Shown here: piece by piece, positions 3,434-40,375 of the stretch
How positions within the stretch are numbered: the first letter of the stretch is position 1
How the letters are laid out: each line of letters starts with the position of its first letter
NCBI GenBank assembly: GCA_964035015.1
Contig: OZ036005.1
Span: forward strand, 10,273,012 to 10,337,011
Length of the DNA: 64,000 nt
Direction: 5' to 3'
Source of the DNA: Corallium rubrum
Taxonomy: Eukaryota; Cnidaria; Anthozoa; Scleralcyonacea; Coralliidae
The notes under the pieces: generated by a model
What the model saw: the letters and a program-made list of their open reading frames with translations, nothing else
The model's database searches: none
Told to the model about the DNA's origin: nothing
Program-made: the position numbers and the translations under genes

Positions 3434-3567
3434 TTGTCTTCTAATTTCCCCGTGCATGTTGATGAGGGAAAATTAGAAGACAAAGAAATCTTTCTAATTT
3501 CTTTGTCTTCTTCTAAATTTCCTGCTTGCATATATTTTCCCTCATCAACGTGCACGGGAAAATTAGA
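3434..3567. repeat. Small inverted repeat (foldback) in channel intron
   Basis: Arms at 3441-3470 and 3539-3567 are inverted copies (CTAATTTCCCCGTGCATGTT versus its complement, with one mismatch). A second small inversion (GAAGACAAAG / CTTTGTCTTC) lies in the loop. Confidence 0.7.
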
Positions 3568-4480: not shown

Positions 4481-4774
4481 TAGAGGGCCCTGAGTAAGAT
4501 TAGCTTTGCTAACCAGAGATGCTTTTAACCCTCTATAAATAACGTTTCAGTTTCAGTTGGAATTTGTCCTAAAGGTTTTGGGACCTGATTTGATATATTT
4601 ATTGTTTTCAAAGGTGGACGTGTAGTTTGACTTGGAAATAGCATTGAAAGAGTACAGACTTGACTCGACTTGATACTTGATTTCAAAAATTTGAGACTTC
4701 TCCTTAAAGACTGAAAACTTGACATTCTACGAGACATTTTAATATTGACGAGTTGTATGCATACTTTATTTTAG

Positions 4775-5061
4775 ATTCAGAAGAAGGAAGGAAAGAATCT
4801 GATCATGAAGAGAAAATCGATGCTGCTGCAACCGATGATCTAAGAGGACTTGCTTTAATGGCAGAACAAATAACCGAGGAACAAGAAATGAGCACGATTC
4901 AAGAGGAATGGCAACTTGCGGCTGAAATTCTTAATCAATTCTTCATGATTATTTACATGATTACCGCATTTCTTACATTTGCTGGCATCTTTATGAACGC
5001 ACCTGGAATCATGTCTTCTCATCCGGTACCATCCATGGATGAAATCATCCGGGTGTACTAA
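4775..5061 (+). CDS. Cys-loop receptor last exon with M4 and stop
   Basis: Acceptor ctttattttag|AT. The product begins with the acidic cytoplasmic segment (DSEEGRKESDHEEKIDAAAT), continues through an amphipathic MA-like helix (EQEMSTIQEEWQLAAEIL), then M4 (NQFFMIIYMITAFLTFAGIF), and a short tail ending DEIIRVY and TAA at 5059-5061. The M3-M4 loop is short for this family, about 100 residues in total. No AATAAA is seen after the stop: the satellite starts at once. The four exons together encode about 261 residues. Confidence 0.88.
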
Positions 5062-8000
5062 AGCACTAAAATATATATACTGCTTTAGACTACTAAAGCA
5101 TTGAAATATATACTACTTTTGACTATACTGAAGCATTGAAATATATACTACTTTTGGGCGCACTGGAGCATTGAAATATATATTACTTTTGACTGTACTG
5201 AAGCATTGAAATATATACTACTTTTGACTGTACTGACGCATTGAAATATATACTACTTTTGACTGTACTGAAGCGTTGAAAAATATACTACTTTTAACTG
5301 TAATGAAGCATTGAAACATATACTACTTTTGACTATATTGAAGCATTGAAATATATACTACTTTTGACTGTAATGAAGCATTGAAATATATACTACTTTT
5401 GACTGTACTGAAGCGTTGAAAAATATACTACTTTTAACTGTAATGAAGCATTGAAACATATACTACTTTTGACTATATTGAAGCATTGAAATATATACTA
5501 CTTTTGACTGTAATGAAGCATTGAAATATATACTACTTTGACTGTACTAACGCATTGAAATATATACTACTTTTGACTGTACTGAAGCATTGAAAAATAT
5601 ACTACTTTTAACTGTATTGAAGCATTGAAACATATACTACTTTTGACTATATTGAAGCATTGAAATACATACTACTTTTGACTGTACTGAAGCATTGAAA
5701 TATATTACTTTAGACTGTACTGAAGCATTGAAATATATACTACTTTTGACTGTACTGAAGCATTGAAATATATACTACTTTTAACTGTAATGAAGCATTG
5801 AAACATATACTACTTTTGACTATATTGAAGCATTGAAATATATACTACTTTTGACTGTAATGAAGCATTGAAATATATACTACTTTTGACTGTACTGAAG
5901 CATTGAAATATATACTACTTTTGGGCGCACTGGAGCATTGAAATATATATTACTTTTGACTGTACTGAAGCATTGAAATATATACTACTTTCGACTGTAC
6001 TGACGCATTGAAATATATACTACTTTTGACTGTACTGAAGCGTTGAAAAATATACTACTTTTAACTGTAATGAAGCATTGAAACATATACTACTTTTGAC
6101 TATATTGAAGCATTGAAATATATACTACTTTTGACTGTAATGAAGCATTGAAATATATACTACTTTTGACTGTACTGAAGCGTTGAAAAATATACTACTT
6201 TTAACTGTAATGAAGCATTGAAACATATACTACTTTTGACTATATTGAAGCATTGAAATATATACTACTTTTGACTGTACTGAAGCATTGAAATATATAT
6301 TACTTTAGACTGTACTGAAGCATTGAAATATATACTACTTTTGACTGTACTGAAGCGTTGAAAAATATACTACTTTTAACTGTAATGAAGCATTGAAACA
6401 TATACTACTTTTGACTATATTGAAGCATTGAAATATATACTACTTTTGACTGTACTGAAGCATTGAAATATGTATTACTTTAGACTGTACTGAAGCATTG
6501 AAATATATACTACTTTTGACTGTACTGAAGCATTGAAATATATACTACTTTTAACTGTAATGAAGCATTGAAACATATACTACTTTTGACTATATTGAAG
6601 CATTGAAACATATACTACTTTTGACTGCAATAAGCATTGAAATATATACTACTTTTGACTATTGAAGCATTGAAATATATACTACTTTTGACTGTACTGA
6701 AGCATTGAAATATATATTACTTTAGACTGTACTGAAGCATTGAAATATTTATTACTTTTGACTGTAATGAAGCATTGAAATATATACTATTTTTGACTGT
6801 AATGAAGCATTGAAATGACTTTTGACTACTGAAGCATTGAAATATATACTACTTTTGACTGTACTGAAGCATTGAAATGTATACTACTTTTGACTGTACT
6901 GAAGCATTGAAATATATACTACTTTTAACTGTAATGAAGCATTGAAACATATACTACTTTTGACTATATTGAAGCATTGAAATATATATTACTTTAGACT
7001 GTACTGAAGCATTGAAATATATACTACTTTTGACTGTACTGAAGCATTGAAATGTATACTACTTTTGACTGTACTGAAGCATTGAAATATATACTACTTT
7101 TAACTGTAATGAAGCATTGAAACATATACTACTTTTGACTATATTGAAGCATTGAAATATATACTACTTTTGACTGTACTGAAGCATTGAAATATGTATT
7201 ACTTTAGACTGTACTGAAGCATTGAAATATATACTACTTTTGACTGTACTGAAGCATTGAAATATATACTACTTTTAACTGTAATGAAGCATTGAAACAT
7301 ATACTACTTTTGACTATATTGAAGCATTGAAACATATACTACTTTTGACTGCAATGAAGCATTGAAATATATACTACTTTTGACTATTGAAGCATTGAAA
7401 TATATACTACTTTTGACTGTACTGAAGCATTGAAATATATATTACTTTAGACTGTACTGAAGCATTGAAATATTTATTACTTTTGACTGTAATGAAGCAT
7501 TGAAATATATACTATTTTTGACTGTAATGAAGCATTGAAATGACTTTTGACTACTGAAGCATTGAAATATATACTACTTTTGACTGTACTGAAGCATTGA
7601 AATGTATACTACTTTTGACTGTACTGAAGCATTGAAATATATACTACTTTTAACTGTAATGAAGCATTGAAACATATACTACTTTTGACTATATTGAAGC
7701 ATTGAAATAATATTACTTTAGACTGTACTGAAGCATTGAAATATATACTACTTTTGACTGTAATGAAGCATTGAAATATATACTACTTTTGACTGTACTG
7801 AAGCATTGAAATATATACTACTTTTGACTGTACTGAAGCATTGAAATATATACTACTTTTGACTACTGAAGCATTGAAATATATACTACTTTTAACTGTA
7901 CGGAAGCATTGAAATGTATACTACTTTTGACTGTACTGAAGCATTGAAATATATACTACTTTTGACTGTACTGAAGCATTGAAATGTATACTACTTTTAA

Positions 8001-11000
8001 CTGTAATGAAGCGTTGAAACATATACTACTTTTGACTACTGAAGCATTGAAATATATACTACTTTTAACTGTAATGAAGCGTTGAAACATATACTACTTT
8101 TGACTATATTGAAGCATTGAAATATATATTACTTTAGACTGTACTGAAGCATTTAAATATTTATTACTTTTGATTGTAATGAAGCATTGAAATATATACT
8201 ACTTCTGACTGTAATGAAGCATTGAAATAACTTTTGACTACTGAAGCATTGAAATATATACTACTTTTGACTGTACTGAAGCATTGAAATGTATACTACT
8301 TTTGACGGTACTGAAGCATTGAAATATATACTACTTTTAACTGTAATGAAGCATTGAAACATATACTACTTTTGACTATATTGAAGCATTGAAATATATA
8401 CTACTTTTGACTGTAATGAAGCATTGAAATATATACTACTTTTGACTACTGAAGCATTGAAATATATACTACTTTTGACTGTACTGAAGCATTGAAATAT
8501 ATATTACTTTAGACTGTACTGAAGCATTGAAATATATACTACTTTTGACTGTAATGAAGCATTGAAATATATATTACTTTAGACTGTACTGAAGCATTGA
8601 AATATATACTACTTTTAACTGTACGGAAGCATTGAAATATATACTACTTTTAACTGTAATGAAGCGTTGAAACATATACTACTTTTGACTATATTGAAGC
8701 ATTGAAATATATACTACATTTGACTGTATGAAGCATTGAAATATTTACTTTGAAACTTGACTTATTGAAGCATTGAAATATATCACATTGAAATATATAC
8801 TACTTTTGACTGTACTGAAGTATTAAAATATATATTACTTTAGACTACTGAAGCATTGAAATATATACTACTTTTGACTGTACTGAAGCATTGAAATATA
8901 TACTACTTTTGACTGTAATGAAGCATTGAAATATATACTACTTTTGACTACTGAAGCATTGAAATATATACTACTTTTGACTGTACTGAAGCATTGAAAT
9001 ATATATTACTTTAGACTACTGAAGCATTGAAATATATACTACTTTTGACTGTAATGAAGCATTCAAATATATACTACTTTTGACTACTGAAGCATTGAAA
9101 TATATACTACTTTTGACTGTACTGAAGCATTGAAATATATACTACTTTTGACTACTGAAGCATTGAAATATATACTACTTTTAACTGTACGGAAGCATTG
9201 AAATTTATACTACTTTTGACTGTACTGAAGCATTGAAATATATACTACTTTTGACTGTACTGAAGCATTGAAATGTATACTACTTTTAACTGTAATGAAG
9301 CGTTGAAACATATACTACTTTTGACTACAGAAGCATTGAAATATATACTACTTTTAACTGTAATGAAGCGTTGAAACATATACTACTTTTGACTATATTG
9401 AAGCATTGAAATATATACTACTTTTGACTGTAATGAAGCATTGAAATATATACTACTTTTGACTGTACTGAAGCATTGAAATATATACTACTTTTAACTG
9501 TAATGAAGCGTTGAAACATATACTACTTTTGACTATATTGAAGCATTGAAATATATACTACTTTTGACTACTGAAGCATTGAAATATATACTACTTTTGA
9601 CTGTACTGAAGTATTAAAATATATGTTACTTTAGACTACTGAAGCATTAAAATATATACTACTTTTGACTGTACTGAAGCATTGAAATGTATACTACTTT
9701 TGACTGTACGGAAGCATTGAAATGTATACTACTTTTAACTGTACTGAAACATTGAAATGTATACTACTTTTAACTGTAATGAAGCGTTGAAACATATACT
9801 ACTTTTGACTACTGAAGCATTGAAATATATACTACTTTTAACTGTAATGAAGCGTTGAAACATATACTACTTTTGACTATATTGAAGCATTGCAACATAT
9901 ACTACTTTTGACTGTACTGAAGCATTGAAATATATACTACTTTTAACTGTAATGAAGCGTTGAAACATATACTACTTTTGACTATATTGAAGCATTGAAA
10001 TATATACTACTTTTGACTGTAATGAAGCATTGAAATATATACTACTTTTAACTGTACTGAAGCATTGAAATATATACTACTTTTAACTGTAATGAAGCGT
10101 TGAAACATATACTACTTTTGACTATATTGAAGCATTGAAATATATACTACTTTTGACTACTGAAGCATTGAAATATATACTACTTTTAACTGTACGGAAG
10201 CATTGAAATGTATACTACTTTTGACTGTACTGAAGCATTGAAATATATACTACTTTTGACTGTAGTGAAGCATTGAAATGTATACTACTTTTAACTGTAA
10301 TGAAGCGTTGAAACATATACTACTTTTGACTACTGAAGCATTGAAATATATACTACTTTTAACTGTAATGAAGCGTTGAAACATATACTACTTTTGACTA
10401 TATTGAAGCATTGAAATATATATTACTTTAGACTGTACTGAAGCATTTAAATATTTATTACTTTTGATTGTAATGAAGCATTGAAATATATACTACTTCT
10501 GACTGTAATGAAGCATTGAAATAACTTTTGACTACTGAAGCATTGAAATATATACTACTTTTGACTGTACTGAAGCATTGAAATGTATACTACTTTTGAC
10601 GGTACTGAAGCATTGAAATATATACTACTTTTAACTGTAATGAAGCATTGAAACATATACTACTTTTGACTATATTGAAGCATTGAAATATATACTACTT
10701 TTGACTGTAATGAAGCATTGAAATATATACTACTTTTGACTACTGAAGCATTGAAATATATACTACTTTTGACTGTACTGAAGCATTGAAATATATATTA
10801 CTTTAGACTGTACTGAAGCATTGAAATATATACTACTTTTGACTGTAATGAAGCATTGAAATATATATTACTTTAGACTGTACTGAAGCATTGAAATATA
10901 TACTACTTTTAACTGTACGGAAGCATTGAAATATATACTACTTTTAACTGTAATGAAGCGTTGAAACATATACTACTTTTGACTATATTGAAGCATTGAA

Positions 11001-12880
11001 ATATATACTACTTTTGACTGCTGAAGCATTGAAATATATACTACTTTTGACTGTACTGAAGTATTAAAATATATATTACTTTAGACTACTGAAGCATTGA
11101 AATATATACTACTTTTGACTGTACTGAAGCATTGAAATATATACTACTTTTGACTGTAATGAAGCATTGAAATATATACTACTTTTGACTACTGAAGCAT
11201 TGAAATATATACTACTTTTGACTGTACTGAAGCATTGAAATATATATTACTTTAGACTACTGAAGCATTGAAATATATACTACTTTTGACTGTAATGAAG
11301 CATTCAAATATATACTACTTTTGACTACTGAAGCATTGAAATATATACTACTTTTGACTGTACTGAAGCATTGAAATATATACTACTTTTGACTACTGAA
11401 GCATTGAAATATATACTACTTTTAACTGTACGGAAGCATTGAAATTTATACTACTTTTGACTGTACTGAAGCATTGAAATATATACTACTTTTGACTGTA
11501 CTGAAGCATTGAAATGTATACTACTTTTAACTGTAATGAAGCGTTGAAACATATACTACTTTTGACTACAGAAGCATTGAAATATATACTACTTTTAACT
11601 GTAATGAAGCGTTGAAACATATACTACTTTTGACTATATTGAAGCATTGAAATATATACTACTTTTCACTGTAATGAAGCATTGAAATATATACTACTTT
11701 TGACTGTACTGAAGCATTGAAATATATACTACTTTTAACTGTAATGAAGCGTTGAAACATATACTACTTTTGACTATATTGAAGCATTGAAATATATACT
11801 ACTTTTGACTACTGAAGCATTGAAATATATACTACTTTTGACTGTACTGAAGTATTAAAATATATGTTACTTTAGACTACTGAAGCATTAAAATATATAC
11901 TACTTTTGACTGTACTGAAGCATTGAAATGTATACTACTTTTGACTGTACGGAAGCATTGAAATGTATACTACTTTTAACTGTACTGAAACATTGAAATG
12001 TATACTACTTTTAACTGTAATGAAGCGTTGAAACATATACTACTTTTGACTACTGAAGCATTGAAATATATACTACTTTTAACTGTAATGAAGCGTTGAA
12101 ACATATACTACTTTTGACTATATTGAAGCATTGCAACATATACTACTTTTGACTGTACTGAAGCATTGAAATATATACTACTTTTAACTGTAATGAAGCG
12201 TTGAAACATATACTACTTTTGACTATATTGAAGCATTGAAATATATACTACTTTTGACTGTAATGAAGCATTGAAATATATACTACTTTTAACTGTACTG
12301 AAGCATTGAAATATATACTACTTTTAACTGTAATGAAGCGTTGAAACATATACTACTTTTGACTATATTGAAGCATTGAAATATATACTACTTTTGACTA
12401 CTGAAGCATTGAAATATATACTACTTTTGACTGTACTGAAGTATTAAAATATGTGTTACTTTAGACTCCTGAAGCATTGAAATATATACTACTTTGGACT
12501 GTACTGAAGCATTGAAATATATACTACTTTTGACTGTATTGAAGCATTGGAATATATACTACTTTTAACTGTACTGAAGCATTTAAATATATATATATAC
12601 TACTTTAAAAGTAGTATGGCAATGCTTCAATATAGTCAAAAGTAGTACTTTTGACTATATTGAAGCATTGAAATATATAATACTTTTCACTGTACTGAAG
12701 CATTAAAATATATACTACTTTTGACTATACTGAAGCATTAAAATATATACTACTTTTGACTATACTGAAGCATTTAAATATATACTACTTTAGACTGTAC
12801 TGAAGTATTGAAATATATACTACTTTTAACAGTACTGAGGCATTTAAATATATACTACTTTTGACTATACTGAAGCATTG
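5054..12880. repeat. 35-bp AT-rich satellite array, about 220 monomers
   Basis: The consensus monomer is 35 bp, made of TGTACTGAAGCATTGAAATA followed by TATACTACTTTTGAC. Common variants are ACTATATTGAAG, ACTGTAATGAAG, AACATATACT, TATATTACTTTAGAC and a 32-bp form ACTACTGAAG. The first degenerate unit overlaps the last codons and stop of the channel gene (TGTACTAAAGCACT against TGTACTGAAGCATT). Larger duplications are visible. About 8041-10330 repeats at 10331-12420 with an offset of 2241-2294 bp (markers ATTTAAATATTTATT at 8151 and 10445, CATTCAAATA at 9060 and 11301, TTGCAACATA at 9890 and 12131). A 715-765 bp duplication lies in 5150-7560. No variable spacers are present, so it is not CRISPR. 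Confidence 0.97.
12607..12670. repeat. Inverted monomer forming a perfect 24-bp hairpin
   Basis: One monomer near the right end of the satellite lies in reverse orientation. Positions 12620-12643 and 12647-12670 are perfect complements with a 3-nt loop. It is the only strand switch noticed in the array. Confidence 0.9.
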
Positions 12881-32326: not shown

Positions 32327-33848
32327 GGTGTAAGTAGTAATACCCCCCACTATAGACCCCAAAGGGATGCCGCCTCATTAAATATTCAACTTATTATTTA
32401 TTCATTCTCCTTTGTGACGTTCTAACCCTAATCTCATTATGCATACGTCATTATTTCTCATGTTCCTTTGGGACATAGTAACCCTAACTTTCCCCCCTAG
32501 CCCTAGCTGTTACTTAACCCCCCTGGTATTCACTACGTCATACCGACTTATTATTTATTCATTCTCAGACTCCTTTTAGTAACCCTAACTTTCCCCCCTA
32601 ACCCTAGATGTTACTTAACCCCCCGTCATAACCGATAGCTCTCCGACTGATTTCCGAAGTTACGTAAAAGGTACTCGGCTTATATCCTTATAAGTAATAG
32701 TAATCACCTTTTCATTTAAACACTTTACCCTACTGACAGTTGACAGTTGTGGGACACGTAGACGTACAGAGCATGCGTACACTAAACTTTAACAAAATAG
32801 ATGTTCTTTACAAGGAACTAAAGAGAAATTGATAGAGGCACTTTATATTTTTTATCTGAAACCTTGTCTGGAGGATTATAGAGAGTTCTGAACAGCGTAA
32901 GTGTCTGAATTGGCAGAGAGAACTGCTCTGGTCAAACCTGAATATTATTTGAATAATATGGAGACTTTGAATATTATATTAGTCAGAACCTGAATGACCA
33001 AACAGTCTTATACGCGTTTGGTGGCAATAAGTGTTAACAATTTTAGAGAGTTATCGTTTACTTTGGCCTAGTTTGTAGAGGAACGAAACAGAAATGGATA
33101 GAGGCACTTTATATTTTTTGTCTTAAACTTGGTTTGGAGGAATATAGCGGGTTTTTGGTTAAGTAATCCGAGTGTTATTTTCGAAGAGATGAATGTTGAC
33201 AGTTTTGGTCGAATTATTGCCTATCTAACCTTAGTCTATAACCTACTAGTGATTCCTTGGATGAAGAAACAGTTCGAGAAGTCGTAAGAAGACACAAATC
33301 AATTCGAAAAGCGAAGAGCAAAGACTTGTCCATATATAACTGAGATACATCATGGTTACTAGGCTTTCTCTTTATAAGTGAGGAAATTGTAGACAACTAG
33401 GCTGCCCAAAACTCTCTATACTCATCGAGACAAGGTTTCAGAAAGTTTTGTGAATATTGACCAAATACCCTACTTTGAAACATTGCAGAGCTTGGTTAAA
33501 TAATTCGTTGCTATGGTTTGATATGCTATAAGATTCTCGCACGTGCAGAACACAAAAGGGAAAAGCTATTAAAACCTCATCACGGGTCATTAGTGGTACA
33601 ACTCGCTTGTATTTGCATATACTGTAGAATATGTAATTATTTGTGGGGTTGTGAAAGGATAATAAGGGATATGAAGACGCTTTAATGCGTAGGCATGTTT
33701 AGGCCAAAAAGTCATTAGCGTGTATTTTGCATAAGACAGAATTCACAACAATCGGTTTAAAATATTTATTTAGGCTTTGGTTTAAACATATACATATAAA
33801 AAGTTTTAGTAAGGTCTGCTTCTTAGATTATATTTAGGTGTTTTTATT

Positions 33849-34112
33849 TTAAAAGTAGCATGATAATCTTTCTTGTCCTCTGATGATAATTGAGACACGT
33901 CTTCTTTTGTCATGGGTAAATATTTTGATCTGGTCATCAATAGATTGGTGTTCATACTCTTCTCTTTCATCCGGAGTCATCTTTGCCAAGTCTTTCTCTG
34001 TCGGGTCGCCCAAACTTTCCCAGTTATGAAAGAAATTATGTTTAAGCGTCGGTTGTTCAACGGTAGGAGGCGGTGTTACAAAATAGGTTTTAGGTGTAGC
34101 AGGGAAACCCCC
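33849..34112 (-). CDS. Unidentified ORF in left palindrome arm
   Basis: Same 87-residue end as the right-arm copy at 35822, with one visible residue change (SIIIRG versus SIVIRG). Key stretches are TPKTYFVTPPPTVEQ, WESLGDPTEKDLAKMTPDER, EEYEHQSIDDQIKIF and RRRVSI. The complement of TAAAATAAA follows the last codon, so the stop is directly followed by AATAAA. Upstream the frame runs into the G-rich minisatellite (Gly-Val-Phe-Gly-Gly-Tyr-Pro-like repeats), so the true start or splice acceptor is unclear. Not recognised; it could be a terminal exon. Confidence 0.4.
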   Translation of the reverse strand, partial: GGFPATPKTYFVTPPPTVEQPTLKHNFFHNWESLGDPTEKDLAKMTPDEREEYEHQSIDDQIKIFTHDKRRRVSIIIRGQERLSCYF

Positions 34113-34765
34113 CCGGAGTACCCATGGGGGTAACCCTAAACCCCCCCCCCCTGGGATACCCCCAATCACCACCGGGATACCCCAAACACCCCTGGGGTAA
34201 CCTCCAAACACCCCGGGGTACCCCCAATCACCCCTGGGGTAACCCCCAAACACCCCCGGGATACCCCAATCACCCCAGGGGTAACCCCAAACACCCCCGG
34301 GGTAACCTCCAAACACCCCGGGGTACCCCCAATCACCCCTGGGGTAACCCCCAAACACCCCCGGGATACCCCAATCACCCCAGGGGTAACCCCCAAACAC
34401 CCCCGGGGTACCCCAATCACCCCTGGGTAACCCCCAAACACCCCCGGGATACCCCAATCACCCCAGGGGTAACCCCCAAACACCCCGGGGTAACCTCCAA
34501 ACACCCCGGGGTACCCCCAATCACCCCTGGGGTAACCCCCAAACACCCCCGGGATACCCCAATCACCCCAGGGGTAACCCCCAAACACCCCCGAGGTACC
34601 CCCAATCACCCCTGGGGTAACCCCCAAACACCCCCGGGGTACCCCCAATCACCCCAGGGGTAACCCCAAACACCCCGGGATACCCCAATCACCCCGGGGG
34701 TAACCCCAAACACCCCCTGAGGTACCCCATTCACGCCTGGCGTAACCCCAAACACCCCCGAGGAT
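34113..34765. repeat. C-rich 42-bp minisatellite, left arm
   Basis: Alternating 21-bp half-units TGGGGTAACCCCCAAACACC and GGGTACCCCCAATCACCCC. About 15 units of 42 bp. It is the inverted counterpart of 35335-35830 but roughly 160 bp longer, so the arms have changed length independently. Confidence 0.92.
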
Positions 34766-34889
34766 GCTCCAAACTCCCCCTATCAAGCAGTCATATAGTC
34801 ATGTAGTCATAATACTAACTAAGAGTATAGTCCTTATCTTCCCATTATCTTCCATTTATCTTTCTTGTCTTCCTTATCTTCCTCTTATC

Positions 34890-35200
34890 TTCCCATTATC
34901 TTCCTCCTCCTCCTCTTTCTCCTCCTCCTCCTCTTTCTCCTCCTCCTCCTCCTCCTCCTCATTCTCCTCCTCCTCTTCCCCCTCTTGCTCCTCCTCCTCC
35001 TCTTGCTCCTCATCCTCCTCCGCTCCTCCTCCACCTCCTCCTCCTCCTCCTCCTCCTCCTCTAAGTCCTAAGACTTAGGACTATAGTCTTAGGACTATAG
35101 TCTTAGGACTTAGGACTATATAGTCTTAGAACTTAGAGGAGGAGGAGGAGGAGGAGGAGGAGGAGAAAGAGGAGGAGGAGGAGAAAGAGGAGGAGGAGGA
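34890..35200. repeat. TCC/AGG trinucleotide tract around the palindrome centre
   Basis: TCC-rich tract (34900-35060), the 64-bp centre, then the AGG-rich complement (35137-35200). The polypurine/polypyrimidine mirror makes hairpin or triplex structures likely at the axis. Confidence 0.9.
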
Positions 35201-35334
35201 AGATAATGGGAGGATAAGAGGAAGATAAGGAAGACAAGAAAGATAAATGGAAGATAATGGGAAGATAAGGACTATACTCTTAGTTAGTATTATGACTACA
35301 TGACTATATGACTGCTTGATAGGGGGAGTTTGGA

Positions 35335-35830
35335 GCATCCTCGGGGGTGTTTGGGGTTACGCCAGGCGTGAATGGGGTACCCCAGGGGGTGTTTGGGGTT
35401 ACCCCTGGGGTGATTGGGGGTACCCCGGGGGTGTTTGGGGGTTACCCCTGGGGTGATTGGGGGTACCTCGGGGGTGTTTGGGGGTTACCCCTGGGGTGAT
35501 TGGGGTATCCCGGGGGTGTTTGGGGGTTACCCCAGGGGTGATTGGGGGTACCCCGGGGTGTTTGGAGGTTACCCCGGGGGTGTTTGGGGGTTACCCCAGG
35601 GGTGATTGGGGGTACCCCGGGGTGTTTGGAGGTTACCCCGGGGGTGTTTGGGGGTTACCCCTGGGGTGATTGGGGTATCCCGGGGGTGTTTGGGGGTTAC
35701 CCCTGGGGTGTTTGGGGGTACCCCGGGGTGTTTGGAGGTTACCCCAGGGGTGTTTGGGGTATCCCGGTGGTGATTGGGGGTATCCCAGGGGGGGTTAGGG
35801 TTACCCCCATGGGTACTCCGGGGGGGTTTC
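35335..35830. repeat. G-rich 42-bp minisatellite, right arm
   Basis: Units of GGGTGTTTGGGGGTTACCCC and GGGGTGATTGGGGGTACCCC, about 11 to 12 copies. The frequent G runs could form quadruplexes on this strand. It is open in several frames only because the unit has no stops. Confidence 0.92.
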
Positions 35831-36085
35831 CCTGCTACACCTAAAACCTATTTTGTAACACCGCCTCCTACCGTTGAACAACCGACGCTTAAACATAATT
35901 TCTTTCATAACTGGGAAAGTTTGGGCGACCCGACAGAGAAAGACTTGGCAAAGATGACTCCGGATGAAAGAGAAGAGTATGAACACCAATCTATTGATGA
36001 CCAGATCAAAATATTTACCCATGACAAAAGAAGACGTGTCTCAATTGTCATCAGAGGACAAGAAAGATTATCATGCTACTTTTAA
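35822..36085 (+). CDS. Unidentified ORF in right palindrome arm
   Basis: Open frame ending at TAA 36083-36085, immediately followed by AATAAA at 36086-36091. It encodes GGFPATPKTYFVTPPPTVEQ then PTLKHNFFHNWESLGDPTEK, an acidic/basic helical stretch (MTPDEREEYEHQS) and RGQERLSCYF. The composition is like a normal soluble protein rather than translated repeat. No family was recognised. The tight stop/poly(A)-signal arrangement and conservation in both arms suggest a real last exon, though two recent palindrome arms will agree even without selection. Confidence 0.42.
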   Translation, partial: GGFPATPKTYFVTPPPTVEQPTLKHNFFHNWESLGDPTEKDLAKMTPDEREEYEHQSIDDQIKIFTHDKRRRVSIVIRGQERLSCYF

Positions 36086-36537
36086 AATAAAAACACCTAA
36101 ATATAATCTAAGAAGCAGACCTTACTAAAACTTTTTATATGTATATGTTTAAACCAAAGCCTAAATAAATATTTTAAACCGATTGTTGTGAATTCTGTCT
36201 TATGCAAAATACACGCTAATGACTTTTTGGCCTAAACATGCCTACGCATTAAAGCGTCTTCATATCCCTTATTATCCTTTCACAACCCCACAAATAATTA
36301 CATATTCTACAGTATATGCAAATACAAGCGAGTTGTACCACTAATGACCCGTGATGAGGTTTTAATAGCTTTTCCCTTTTGTGTTCTGCACGTGCGAGAA
36401 TCTTATAGCATATCAAACCATAGCAACGAATTATTTAACCAAGCTCTGCAATGTTTCAAAGTAGGGTATTTGGTCAATATTCACAAAACTTTCTGAAACC
36501 TTGTCTCGATGAGTATAGAGAGTTTTGGGCAGCCTAG

Positions 36538-36720
36538 TTGTCTACAATTTCCTCACTTATAAAGAGAAAGCTTAGTAACCATGATGTATCTCAGTTATAT
36601 ATGGACAAGTCTTTGCTCTTCGCTTTTCGAATTGATTTGTGTCTTCTTACGACTTCTCGAACTGTTTCTTCATCCAAGGAATCACTAGTAGGTTATAGAC
36701 TAAGGTTAGATAGGCAATAA
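36538..36720 (+). other. Short open frame present in both arms, probably not coding
   Basis: A 60-codon frame, MSTISSLIKRKLSNHDVSQL and onward. The mirror copy is at 33214-33396 on the minus strand with one residue different. No family, poly(A) signal or splice support; recorded because it sits in the transposon arm. Confidence 0.2.
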
Positions 36721-37607
36721 TTCGACCAAAACTGTCAACATTCATCTCTTCGAAAATAACACTCGGATTACTTAACCAAAAACCCGCTATATTCCTCCAA
36801 ACCAAGTTTAAGACAAAAAATATAAAGTGCCTCTATCCATTTCTGTTTCGTTCCTCTACAAACTAGGCCAAAGTAAACGATAACTCTCTAAAATTGTTAA
36901 CACTTATTGCCACCAAACGCGTATAAGACTGTTTGGTCATTCAGGTTCTGACTAATATAATATTCAAAGTCTCCATATTATTCAAATAATATTCAGGTTT
37001 GACCAGAGCAGTTCTCTCTGCCAATTCAGACACTTACGCTGTTCAGAACTCTCTATAATCCTCCAGACAAGGTTTCAGATAAAAAATATAAAGTGCCTCT
37101 ATCAATTTCTCTTTAGTTCCTTGTAAAGAACATCTATTTTGTTAAAGTTTAGTGTACGCATGCTCTGTACGTCTACGTGTCCCACAACTGTCAACTGTCA
37201 GTAGGGTAAAGTGTTTAAATGAAAAGGTGATTACTATTACTTATAAGGATATAAGCCGAGTACCTTTTACGTAACTTCGGAAATCAGTCGGAGAGCTATC
37301 GGTTATGACGGGGGGTTAAGTAACATCTAGGGTTAGGGGGGAAAGTTAGGGTTACTACGTCCCAAAGGAGTCTGAGAATGAATAAATAATAAGTCGGTAT
37401 GACGTAGTGAATACCAGGGGGGTTAAGTAACAGCTAGGGCTAGGGGGGAAAGTTAGGGTTACTATGTCCCAAAGGAACATGAGAAATAGTGACGTATGCA
37501 TAATGAGATTAGGGTTAGAACGTCACAAAGGAGAATGAATAAATAATAAGTTGAATATTTAATGAGGCGGCATCCCTTTGGGGTCTATAGTGGGGGGTAT
37601 TACTACT

Positions 37608-37895
37608 GGTGTACCAAAACAATTAAATGGTGACTATACTGATGTACATGCCCCAAAACATTGAAATGGTAGCCATAGAACCAAAACAATGAAATGGTGG
37701 CCATACTGGTGTTACCAAAACAATGAAATAGTGGCCAATCAGCCGTATTGGTGTATCAAAACAATGAAATGGTGGCCATACTGGTGTACCAAAACAATGA
37801 AATGGTGGCCATACTGATGTGCCAAAACATTGAAATAGTGGCCATATTGGTGCACCAAAACAATGAAATGCCAGCTATACTGGTGTACCAAAACA
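37608..37895. repeat. 33-bp minisatellite, about 8 units
   Basis: Unit GGTGTACCAAAACAATGAAA plus TGGTGGCCATACT. One further unit lies left of the giant palindrome at about 32296-32332, so the array was split by the insertion. Confidence 0.9.
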
Positions 37896-38264
37896 ATAAT
37901 ACACACTTGATGAAAGTAATGTATAAACTGTTTAATAACATCGACTTTTAGTGCAAGACATCAGTACAATAATAAACAATACAAGCAAATAAAGCAAACC
38001 ACAAATATTAATACAGTTACCTCAATACATTTAAGCTTACATACAGCATTCACAGACACAAGTCAGTTCAGCTAAATGACAACTTCGATGAAGATGTAAA
38101 ATACAGCATGTTTACCTTTCACTTGCTAGTTGGCTTTATCAACTTTCTTTGTTCTTTGATTTACAGCATTGAGCAACATTTTTCAGTACCATTTAATTAA
38201 TAACACATGTAAGTTGATCGAGAACACATTGATCGGCACATTTTCAGCGTACAGTTACCGAGAT

Positions 38265-38636: not shown

Positions 38637-38757
38637 TTACATTTCAAACAAACTGAAATATCTCAACAACGAAGCAAGGAAACGGAAAACTGCAAAAGAT
38701 GTTACTCTATCATTTTAAGTGTTCTTTCAAATAAGACAAACTTAATTTTCGTTTCAT
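38637..38757. repeat. Outer inverted repeat, right arm, inner part
   Basis: Inverted copy of 31845-31962 (TTACATTTCAAACAAACTGA, ATATCTCAACAACGAAGCAA). It continues at 40378 after the LINE. Confidence 0.85.
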
Positions 38758-40375
38758 TGTTCGGTAAAGTTGGATAATGGAAGTACTCCTTTCTTTAAGT
38801 CCTATATTGGAGTAAAGCAAGGATGTAATCTAAGTCCTACTTTATTCAACATGTTTATAAATGATACACCTGATTTATTTACCAGCTCGTGTGCTCCAGT
38901 AAAACTTGGTGAAACGGATTTAAATTGTTTACTTTATGCAGACGATTTAGTTTTATTATCTGAATCCAAGTCTGGTTTACAAAACTGTCTCAAAAAACTT
39001 GAATTTTACACCAAGAAATGGAAATTAAACATTAATTTTAAAAAATCCAAAGTCTTATTATTTGGAACACCAACCCAAAGACGTACACACTTATCATCAA
39101 ATTGGTCCTTTGAAAATAACATTTTAGAACAAGTTGATGAATATTGTTACCTTGGTATTACTCTTCATTTTTCTGGTAATTTTAAACGAACACAGAAAAT
39201 AATATATGGTAAAGCATTATGTGCCTACGATAGTTTATTCAAAAGATTTTCAAACGTGGAAAATGTACCATTCAAATTACTTTTAAAACTTTTCTCTTCG
39301 ATGGTATAGTTCCAATTTTACTGTATGGTTGCGAAGTTTGGGGCCCGTACTTACTGGGCAAAATAAATTCTTTCGAAATGTTTAAATCTAAAATTTTTAA
39401 AATAAGAAATGATCTTGAAAGACTTCATTTTAAAATTTTGCAAAAGAATTCTAGGCGTTCATTCAAAATCAACAAATTTGGCCGTCTACGCTGAACTAGG
39501 CAGGACACCCTTAATTATACAAATAGACTAAACTTGTAACAAAATTATTGGTTTCGCATCCAAAGTTCACCTTTTTCAGATACCCTTGTTGGTGAAGCGG
39601 CGAGAGTCTGCACGAACTTTAACCTACAACCAATATCATTCACAAAATATTTACTACAGCTAGGTGGGGTAGAAATTTGCAACTCTCAATCTTCTGCATT
39701 ATCCACCAAAGAACAAGGAAATTTTTTCCATTACTTGAAAAATAAAATACAAGAATATTTTATTGAATACTGGAAAGAACAGATTGAACAGGGTGAAAAC
39801 AATGGCAAGTTAAGAATTTTTAAAAAAATGAAAACTAACTTTGGTTATGAAAAATGTCTTTCTGAGATTCACAATTTCAAACACCGTCAAGCTGTCACAA
39901 AATTAAGGATTTCAGCTCATAGATTACCTGTTGAAACTGGTCGATACAGCAATGTTCCATACAGTAATAGACTATGTAAACATTGCGATCTTAACGAGAT
40001 CGGGAATGAGGAACACTTTTTAACGTCATGTACAAACACAAAGTTCGCCGATCTCAGAGTAAATTTTATTGATAACCTATATAAAGTAAATAGTTCATTC
40101 GAATTGTTTAATTCCCAAGATATTTTTATGTACCTTATGTCTACTCAAGACAGAACAGTTATGACTTTGGCAGGGAAACACTGTTTCGATGTTTTAACAA
40201 TTTTTGATATCATAACTTAACGTAGATAATAGAAATTAACTTTATATATATGTAATATGTATGTCATGTAGTTGTAGTTAGTGTCACGTTTGTATCCTAT
40301 ATACCAAAGCTGGTATTGATGTTGTTGATCAAGTAAATTAATCTGTCACATCAAACTAATCTGTGCACTTTATAA
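38758..40375 (+). pseudogene. 5'-truncated LINE with broken reverse transcriptase
   Basis: 38770-39309 encodes the polymerase palm: GVKQGCNLSPTLFNMFIND, LLYADDLVLLS (catalytic YADD) and WKLNINFKKSKVLLFG. The frame then breaks near 39309. Pieces such as ILGVHSKSTNLAVYAELGRT (about 39444-39510) are in other frames. 39735-40220 encodes the C-terminal part with a CKHCDLNEIGNEEHFLTSC zinc-binding motif (CX2C...HX4C). The endonuclease domain is missing. It interrupts the right arm of the outer inverted repeat, so it arrived after that element formed. The clade is not assigned. Confidence 0.88.

Follow-up and report, generated by a model that had tools for sequence, protein, structure and literature searches.

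What kind of mobile element consists of nothing more than two mirror-image arms? The question is raised by a palindrome at positions 32333-37607 of a 64,000-nucleotide stretch of the Corallium rubrum genome (assembly GCA_964035015.1, contig OZ036005.1, forward-strand positions 10,273,012 to 10,337,011), called the window below. The palindrome is a real mobile element and belongs to a large mirror-image family related to the Polinton/Maverick DNA transposons. Our best explanation, with a probability of about 0.75, is that the members are snap-back Polinton genomes, which would have arisen by strand switching in protein-primed replication, would have been inserted by a Polinton integrase and are probably helper-dependent.

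The palindrome and its target site

An initial annotation of the window had reported a 5.3-kb near-perfect palindrome with arms of about 2.7 and 2.5 kb, matching tips and the hexamer GGTGTA on both flanks, and each of these features is present. The element covers 5275 bp, all of which are spanned by mirror alignments. Its left arm (32333-35060, plus strand; about 2.73 kb) and its right arm, an inverted copy of the left (35137-37607, minus strand; about 2.47 kb), flank a core of approximately 76 bp at 35061-35136. Aligned against each other, the arms are 97.6% identical over 2280 columns, and their outer 1.8 kb are only 3 substitutions and one 6-bp indel apart. Both tips are identical (AGTAGT..ACTACT); the left one, at 32333-32348 on the plus strand, reads AGTAGTAATACCCCCC and carries the (AGT)2 Maverick-type end motif, and the right one, at 37592-37607 on the minus strand, ends in ACTACT.

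The two copies of GGTGTA at 32327-32332 and 37608-37613 were assessed by a phase test. The host sequence is a 33-bp minisatellite, which a repeat scan places at 37604-37897 with about one more unit to the left of 32332. Joined flanks fit this repeat best with exactly 6 bp dropped (score 167, against at most 159 when 0-5 or 7-14 bp are dropped). The annotation had further claimed that joining the flanks restores an exact 33-bp unit; the phase is indeed restored, but the unit is not exact, as only 30 of the 33 bases beyond the right end agree with the consensus. Since GGTGTA is itself part of the consensus unit, the window site taken alone is moderate evidence, a 6-bp phase overlap being an estimated 1-in-33 coincidence or thereabouts. 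The 6-bp duplication is settled by sister insertions into other sequences, which show exact duplications.

A family of palindromes

The 474-Mb assembly containing the window was searched with the arm, with two types of packaging ATPase gene (ATPase#1, and ATPase#2 as in the window), with a polymerase and with further queries. Each search scored part of its candidates (arm, 40 of 1840; ATPase#2, 93 of 2182; ATPase#1, 140 of 1686; polymerase, 71 of 759; others, 150 of 243 and 150 of 2152), so that genome counts are lower bounds and the absence of a gene nearby always refers to the genes listed. The palindromes that were fetched are the best matches of the arm search and not a random sample; fetched loci are given L numbers.

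Searched with the arm's first 1.2 kb, the genome gives at least 132 matches, many of them as inverted pairs 5-10 kb apart. Besides the window element, thirteen sister palindromes were fetched: seven of 4878-5967 bp (L010-L016), one of 5531 bp (L032) and five of 9299-10,432 bp with arms 99.2-99.8% identical. Arm length across the palindromes is 2.4-5.2 kb. Mirror cover is complete to the last base in 8 of the 14 (the window element and L010-L016); the unmatched centre measures 38-158 bp in four 10-kb palindromes, 236 bp in L032 and 828 bp in the palindrome L023/L024. Four near-identical copies at different sites, with 0-1 substitutions in about 1775 positions, show recent activity of the family.

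All 13 sisters have AGTAGT..ACTACT tips, and each duplicates a different 6-bp sequence. Altogether 27 element loci were considered, and both tips were in hand for 17. Ten loci were left out of the duplication counts (L009, L027, L028, L029, L031, L033 and L035-L038), as one tip was absent from the fetched piece or the piece contained N; L027 has retrotransposon-like open reading frames (ORFs), judged by eye, and was not used further. L034 was counted with L040/L042 on contig C28 and L030 with L039 on contig C270, while L043, L044 and L045 each come from the interior of a different further element. The C28 element and L041 sit in TA repeats, which are consistent with a 6-bp duplication but uninformative. 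The remaining 15 of 15 informative elements, namely the 14 palindromes and a hybrid on C270, show exact 6-bp duplications. The proposal of a mobile element consisting wholly of two inverted repeats, with 5'-AG tips and a 6-bp duplication, is borne out at these sites, and the genome search with one arm that had been suggested as a check did recover other insertions.

Kinship with Polintons

In a study of vertebrate Mavericks, the commonest end motif is given as 5'-(AGT)2//(ACT)2-3', and intact elements have 6-bp duplications and terminal repeats of 46-1447 bp (PMC8097293). The tip 16-mer pattern AGTAGTRATACCCCCC occurs 694 times in the coral genome, 347 times per strand, and its reversed control does not occur. 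Pairing was analysed for the first 100 of the 694 tips, all on one contig. Of these, 86 form 43 facing pairs, 5.0-15.9 kb apart. Among the eight pairs of 12.7-15.9 kb, six (12.9-14.7 kb) hold a listed integrase, and three of those six also a listed polymerase. One or two listed ATPase#1 genes lie within seven of the eight pairs of 9.7-11.2 kb, none of which holds a listed polymerase or integrase. The window element thus shares its termini with coding elements that carry a type B DNA polymerase (PolB) and an rve integrase, as the tip pairs show. Longer copies with integrase or polymerase B, which the annotation had named as a thing to look for, therefore exist. Its placement of the element as a foldback transposon matching neither a miniature element nor a coding Polinton gives way to that of a Polinton derivative, in view of the shared tips, the coding relatives and the ATPase described below.

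Each window arm holds the last 100 or so residues of a Polinton-type packaging ATPase gene. The full-length relative is a 455-codon ORF in L034 that matches Pox_A32 with 24.5 bits (cutoff 22.8) and has a C2H2 finger. In the left arm, residues 356-409 of this 454-aa relative are encoded at 33951-34112 on the minus strand, with 53 of 54 residues identical, and the C-terminal end follows in another frame at 33806-33976 on the same strand, ending NLRSRPY and a stop as does the L034 ORF. The right arm carries the same residues at 35825-35986 on the plus strand, within an ORF at 35774-36085, and the C-terminal end, with the L034 ending, at 35958-36128, reading toward the right tip; the left copy was used for the 53/54 comparison. 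The remnant spans its two frames identically in both arms. The annotation had recognised no genes in the element, and this part of it has to be revised. The L034-type ATPase has 781 database relatives; two are named among the 120 listed, both from the coral Oculina patagonica. An internal-repeat test for coding in the arm had not been significant (the pair scored 32, against a mean best of 33.7 for shuffles), and the gene was identified via its relatives instead.

The five palindromes of 9.3-10.4 kb carry the 277-codon ATPase#1, whose Pox_A32 match of 20.3 bits is below the cutoff and whose finger scores 31.9 bits. This gene is found in both arms of three of them, in one arm of L021/L022, and as a single copy reaching the centre in L023/L024. 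Three of the five have an ORF of 186-191 codons in each arm, and L021/L022 has it in a single arm. Pooled over pairs of 8 distinct ATPase#1 sequences, dN/dS is 0.18; 15 of 16 ATPase copies were used (L026 was dropped for its length), and the pooled pairs are not independent. The ratio indicates constraint at some time and is not proof of present function.

No PolB or integrase ORF was found in 32333-37607, where seven ORFs were scanned without a Pfam match, and no transposase was recognised in the ORF translations or in the same scan. None of the seven gave a capsid match either, but the Polinton-like structural ORFs of L030 also lack a significant Pfam match, so that Pfam could miss capsid genes; no search was aimed at a protease. 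For residues 122-184 of a 201-aa arm ORF no relative was found, and viral contigs yielded neither a relative of the small arm ORFs nor a tip.

One side of the C270 hybrid is a B-type palindrome arm, partly mirrored; the other carries an integrase (rve, 56.7 bits) and a GRF zinc-ribbon ORF. The integrase side finishes in a related end, which aligns with the tip region of the window element at 86% identity over some 290 bp. This structure suggests recombination between mirror and coding elements. The hybrid (L030 with L039, C270:699272-711170) is 11.9 kb long and duplicates GACGGA, and by eye its integrase side has Polinton-like structural ORFs. The genome is rich in Polintons: there are dozens of coding ones, many nearly identical, with an open integrase of about 360 aa, a conserved 269-aa ORF and polymerase frames.

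Mirror halves and opened centres

The arrangement of the Polinton genes was followed through their close pairs. ATPase#1 has at least 140 matches, which include 41 divergent and 2 convergent close pairs, where chance alone would give 0.14 close pairs. Within 12 kb of the 82 genes that make up the divergent pairs, no polymerase or integrase is listed; among the other 58, 10 have a listed polymerase and 12 a listed integrase within that distance. For ATPase#2, with at least 93 matches, the close pairs are 9 divergent, 2 convergent and 1 on the same strand. The polymerase has at least 71 matches, and all seven of its close pairs are convergent. A listed integrase lies within 14 kb of 0 of 14 paired polymerase genes, compared with 46 of 57 others (Fisher, 1.9e-8). 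Among the listed matches, therefore, the gene pairs belong to two kinds of mirror element, one for the ATPase side and one for the polymerase side, each without the other half.

Two palindromes are open at the centre. The polymerase palindrome L045 has arms 99.4% identical and a 652-bp centre with the start of one ATPase gene. This ATPase is identical to ATPase#1 at 101 of 165 residues (61%) and gives way to an inverted array of GATTCAATCTTAG-type units; in a coding Polinton, the same array separates the polymerase (DNA_pol_B_2, 164.8 bits) from the ATPase. In L023/L024, the unmatched 828-bp centre (C175:104224-105051) contains the 5' portion of the one ATPase#1 listed for that palindrome. Stem, loop and junction have the anatomy that copy-back would be expected to leave. 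Each L045 arm also has a tRNA-like sequence near the tandem array (947-1020 and 3449-3522; ARAGORN, unusual anticodon).

Three further arrangements were observed. A 12.7-kb composite (L040, L034 and L042; C28:8692584-8705255) joins an A-type, L041-like element and a B-type palindrome within one tip pair, in a TA repeat. At C8:18605224(+) and C8:18605617(-), fragments of a structural-like ORF are arranged as mirror images and enclosed by a divergent pair of ATPase genes, perhaps as a palindrome with its axis in another place. In the A-type element L041 (714-6924), terminal repeats of 1.42 kb already include the 3' end of the intact ATPase gene, and L041 is possibly an intermediate stage of repeat growth.

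Shared core and concerted arms

The window element and L010-L013 have the same asymmetric core, in either orientation, with aligned scores of 147-152 out of 152; L028 shares this core as well. A core that is asymmetric and nevertheless common to five elements in either orientation means that their ancestor was probably already a palindrome. Core matches are listed for 7 of the 43 tip-pair elements, in all seven within 341 bp of the midpoint.

Between the window element and L010-L013, 74-75 of 1761 positions differ, whereas the arm-vs-arm differences inside the five elements are 3, 1, 0, 0 and 1. At 72 of the 76 variable columns the two arms of every element carry the same state; the other 4 are private and no column is side-specific, from which it follows that the arms copy each other. 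The annotation had concluded from the near-identical arms that the element moved recently; this does not follow, because the arms are kept identical by concerted evolution. With other subfamilies as outgroups, the shared changes can be placed on the window branch in 25 cases and on the L010-L013 branch in 6; the remaining 41 can be assigned to neither with these outgroups. The 6 changes are found in both arms of four separate insertions and imply that some homogenisation preceded insertion, a point that rests on these 6 columns. A hairpin or panhandle stage of the replicating molecule is one explanation that would account for the identity of the arms.

Origin of the mirror elements

The linear DNA of a Polinton would be copied by protein-primed strand displacement. 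A polymerase that set out from one tip may switch strands inside the element and, with the strand just made as template, return to the tip where it began. Once copied through, the snap-back molecule would become a linear palindrome with the same Polinton tip at either end, and hence with identical origins and integration sites. Insertion of this palindrome by a Polinton integrase would produce the 6-bp duplication. Some palindromes would then spread as lineages of their own, with arms that correct each other. Dependence on a helper is suggested because polymerase and integrase are missing from the window element.

Several observations weigh against this account. L041 is not a full palindrome, as a unique 3.4-kb interior with one intact ATPase separates its terminal repeats, and L044 holds a 2.5-kb unique stretch. 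A polymerase pair on contig C1, at 17.72 Mb, has no listed exact tip 16-mer nearby, so that the polymerase palindromes seem to be a sister subfamily with other tips. Between the B-type ATPase and that of coding Polintons, identity is just 75-78%, which makes the B palindromes an old, established lineage, and among the elements found there is no extant parent that differs from the window element solely by the absent mirror. The window element could equally owe its own arm identity to gene conversion after insertion instead of a hairpin stage. Nor is the idea that the axes are hairpin-rich switch sites supported as a general rule. Self-complementary 8-mers were counted in 400 bp at each of 13 axes and compared with the rest of the same element; they are in clear excess at three (L033, 12 vs 1.7; L036, 5 vs 2.1; L037, 13 vs 3.5), slightly so at L015, L016 and L032, and not clearly enriched at the other seven, which are the window axis (3 vs 3.7), L010-L014 and L045. 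The axes inspected consist mostly of tandem or simple repeats, and that of L036 (about 5619-5793) contains a fragment of the shared end region.

The palindromes could also be non-autonomous, MITE-like Polintons (MITE, miniature inverted-repeat transposable element), in which an ordinary element with long terminal repeats lost its whole interior and two repeats were left. L041, of the same subfamily, lends this some colour, as its terminal repeats reach into the ATPase gene while its interior is unique. However, arms of 2.4-5.2 kb exceed the range of repeat lengths given for intact vertebrate Mavericks in PMC8097293, and the 14 palindromes are fully mirrored in eight cases and leave centres of 38-158 bp in four and of 236 and 828 bp in two. 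Moreover, ATPase and polymerase are single in coding Polintons but form inverted pairs here, and the loop of L045 is the start of one gene. We consider interior deletion unlikely. Slightly less probable still is a chromosomal origin, in which two head-to-head insertions or a breakage and fold-back produced the palindromes and gene conversion kept their arms alike. Gene conversion in palindromes is known, the arms are homogenised, and the resolved shared changes lie mostly on the window branch (25 vs 6), where conversion after insertion suffices. Yet every two-tip palindrome with an informative target sits whole between copies of one 6-bp duplication, hence was inserted as a unit, and the 6 changes of the L010-L013 branch were already common to both arms of four separate insertions.

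Two other possibilities have very little in their favour. One is a different foldback or 6-bp-duplication transposon with its own transposase (Foldback, Galileo, TU, Dada or IS3EU). The long, internally repetitive inverted repeats do resemble foldback elements, but the tips are shared with polymerase- and integrase-bearing Polintons, the arms hold a Polinton-type ATPase, and the duplication is of 6 bp at 15 of 15 informative sites, where Foldback, TU and Galileo make longer ones. No cut-and-paste transposase was seen in elements with the same tips, of which few interiors were read. We regard such a transposon as highly improbable, and the same low odds apply to an assembly artefact, such as a missed adapter or a mirrored contig. 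Palindromes are prone to such errors, and several fetched loci contain runs of N; against this, the host sequence differs on the two sides, the duplications are exact in 15 of 15 cases and the arms have private differences.

If the snap-back origin is adopted, a bolder step may be considered, which we put forward tentatively and with the odds against it. Mirror Polintons would then be stable satellite replicons rather than dead by-products, able to live as hairpins of half their length in which one protein-primed end remains. Each cycle would copy one arm from the other and so keep the two identical. The replicons would retain other ORFs besides a packaging ATPase that is intact, and coding Polintons would supply the polymerase, integrase and virions for their spread. 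With separate polymerase-half and ATPase-half forms, the genome may hold a split, symmetric and partly multipartite Polinton system.

Other features of the window

Subterminal direct repeats of 21-48 bp occupy 32389-32624 of the end region (plus strand; repeat analysis). Inside the element lie TCC-rich repeats, and each arm contains a G/C-rich minisatellite, located by repeat scan at 34148-34760 in the left arm, with units of about 21 bp, and at 35342-35807 in the right. To the left of the element, ORFs at 950-1342 and 4723-5061 resemble, by eye and without a family search, exons of a nicotinic acetylcholine (Cys-loop) receptor gene, and 5073-12880 is a 7.8-kb satellite with 225 copies of 35-bp units (ATATATACTACTTTTGAC...). 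To the right, at 38746-40220, two ORFs look by eye like non-LTR reverse transcriptase (LTR, long terminal repeat).

Comparison with known systems

With Polinton/Maverick elements (adintovirus-like, with an rve integrase and a protein-primed PolB) the palindromes share the (AGT)2//(ACT)2 tips, the 6-bp duplication, the ATPase remnant and the 16-mer of the coding Polintons of this genome. Unlike them, the window element has no recognised polymerase or integrase, its body is one end plus its mirror, and its arms are longer than any repeat given for the intact vertebrate elements of PMC8097293. The long-TIR non-autonomous Polinton L041 (TIR, terminal inverted repeat) has the same tips and the 3' end of the ATPase gene in its repeats, but differs in its unique interior and one intact ATPase. 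Foldback, Galileo and TU are similar in having long inverted repeats with internal tandem repeats. They differ in their ends and in duplication length, which is 9 bp for Foldback, 8 bp for TU and 7 bp for Galileo, and mirror elements carry Polinton genes.

A further likeness is to snap-back or copy-back defective genomes, in which both ends come from one parental end, the stem consists of inverted copies, sometimes looped, and the gene set is partial. In contrast to these, the mirror elements here are chromosomal, have a target duplication and are propagated as families, and their helper dependence is probable rather than observed. The closest known precedent is the yeast linear plasmid pGKL1, with hairpin and palindromic derivatives; replication of adeno-associated virus (AAV) is not protein-primed. 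The snapback genomes of AAV, as described in the accessible part of PMC8235507, are an analogue. No description of palindromic or snap-back Polintons was found in the open-access literature covered, including the accessible portions of PMC8097293, PMC11071308 and PMC12220804, subscription papers being outside its scope. Jumping-back at Maverick end motifs is, in the portion of PMC8097293 available, expected from adenoviruses and tectiviruses and not observed.

If our explanation is true, these insertions are snap-back genomes frozen in the chromosomes, some with a readable loop and junction, and would record jumping-back replication in a form that is testable in a multicellular host. Very long near-perfect palindromes are usually unstable, and mirror Polintons are a source of such palindromes scattered across an animal genome. 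On that explanation, copy-back defective viral genomes would have a natural counterpart here, in integrated form.

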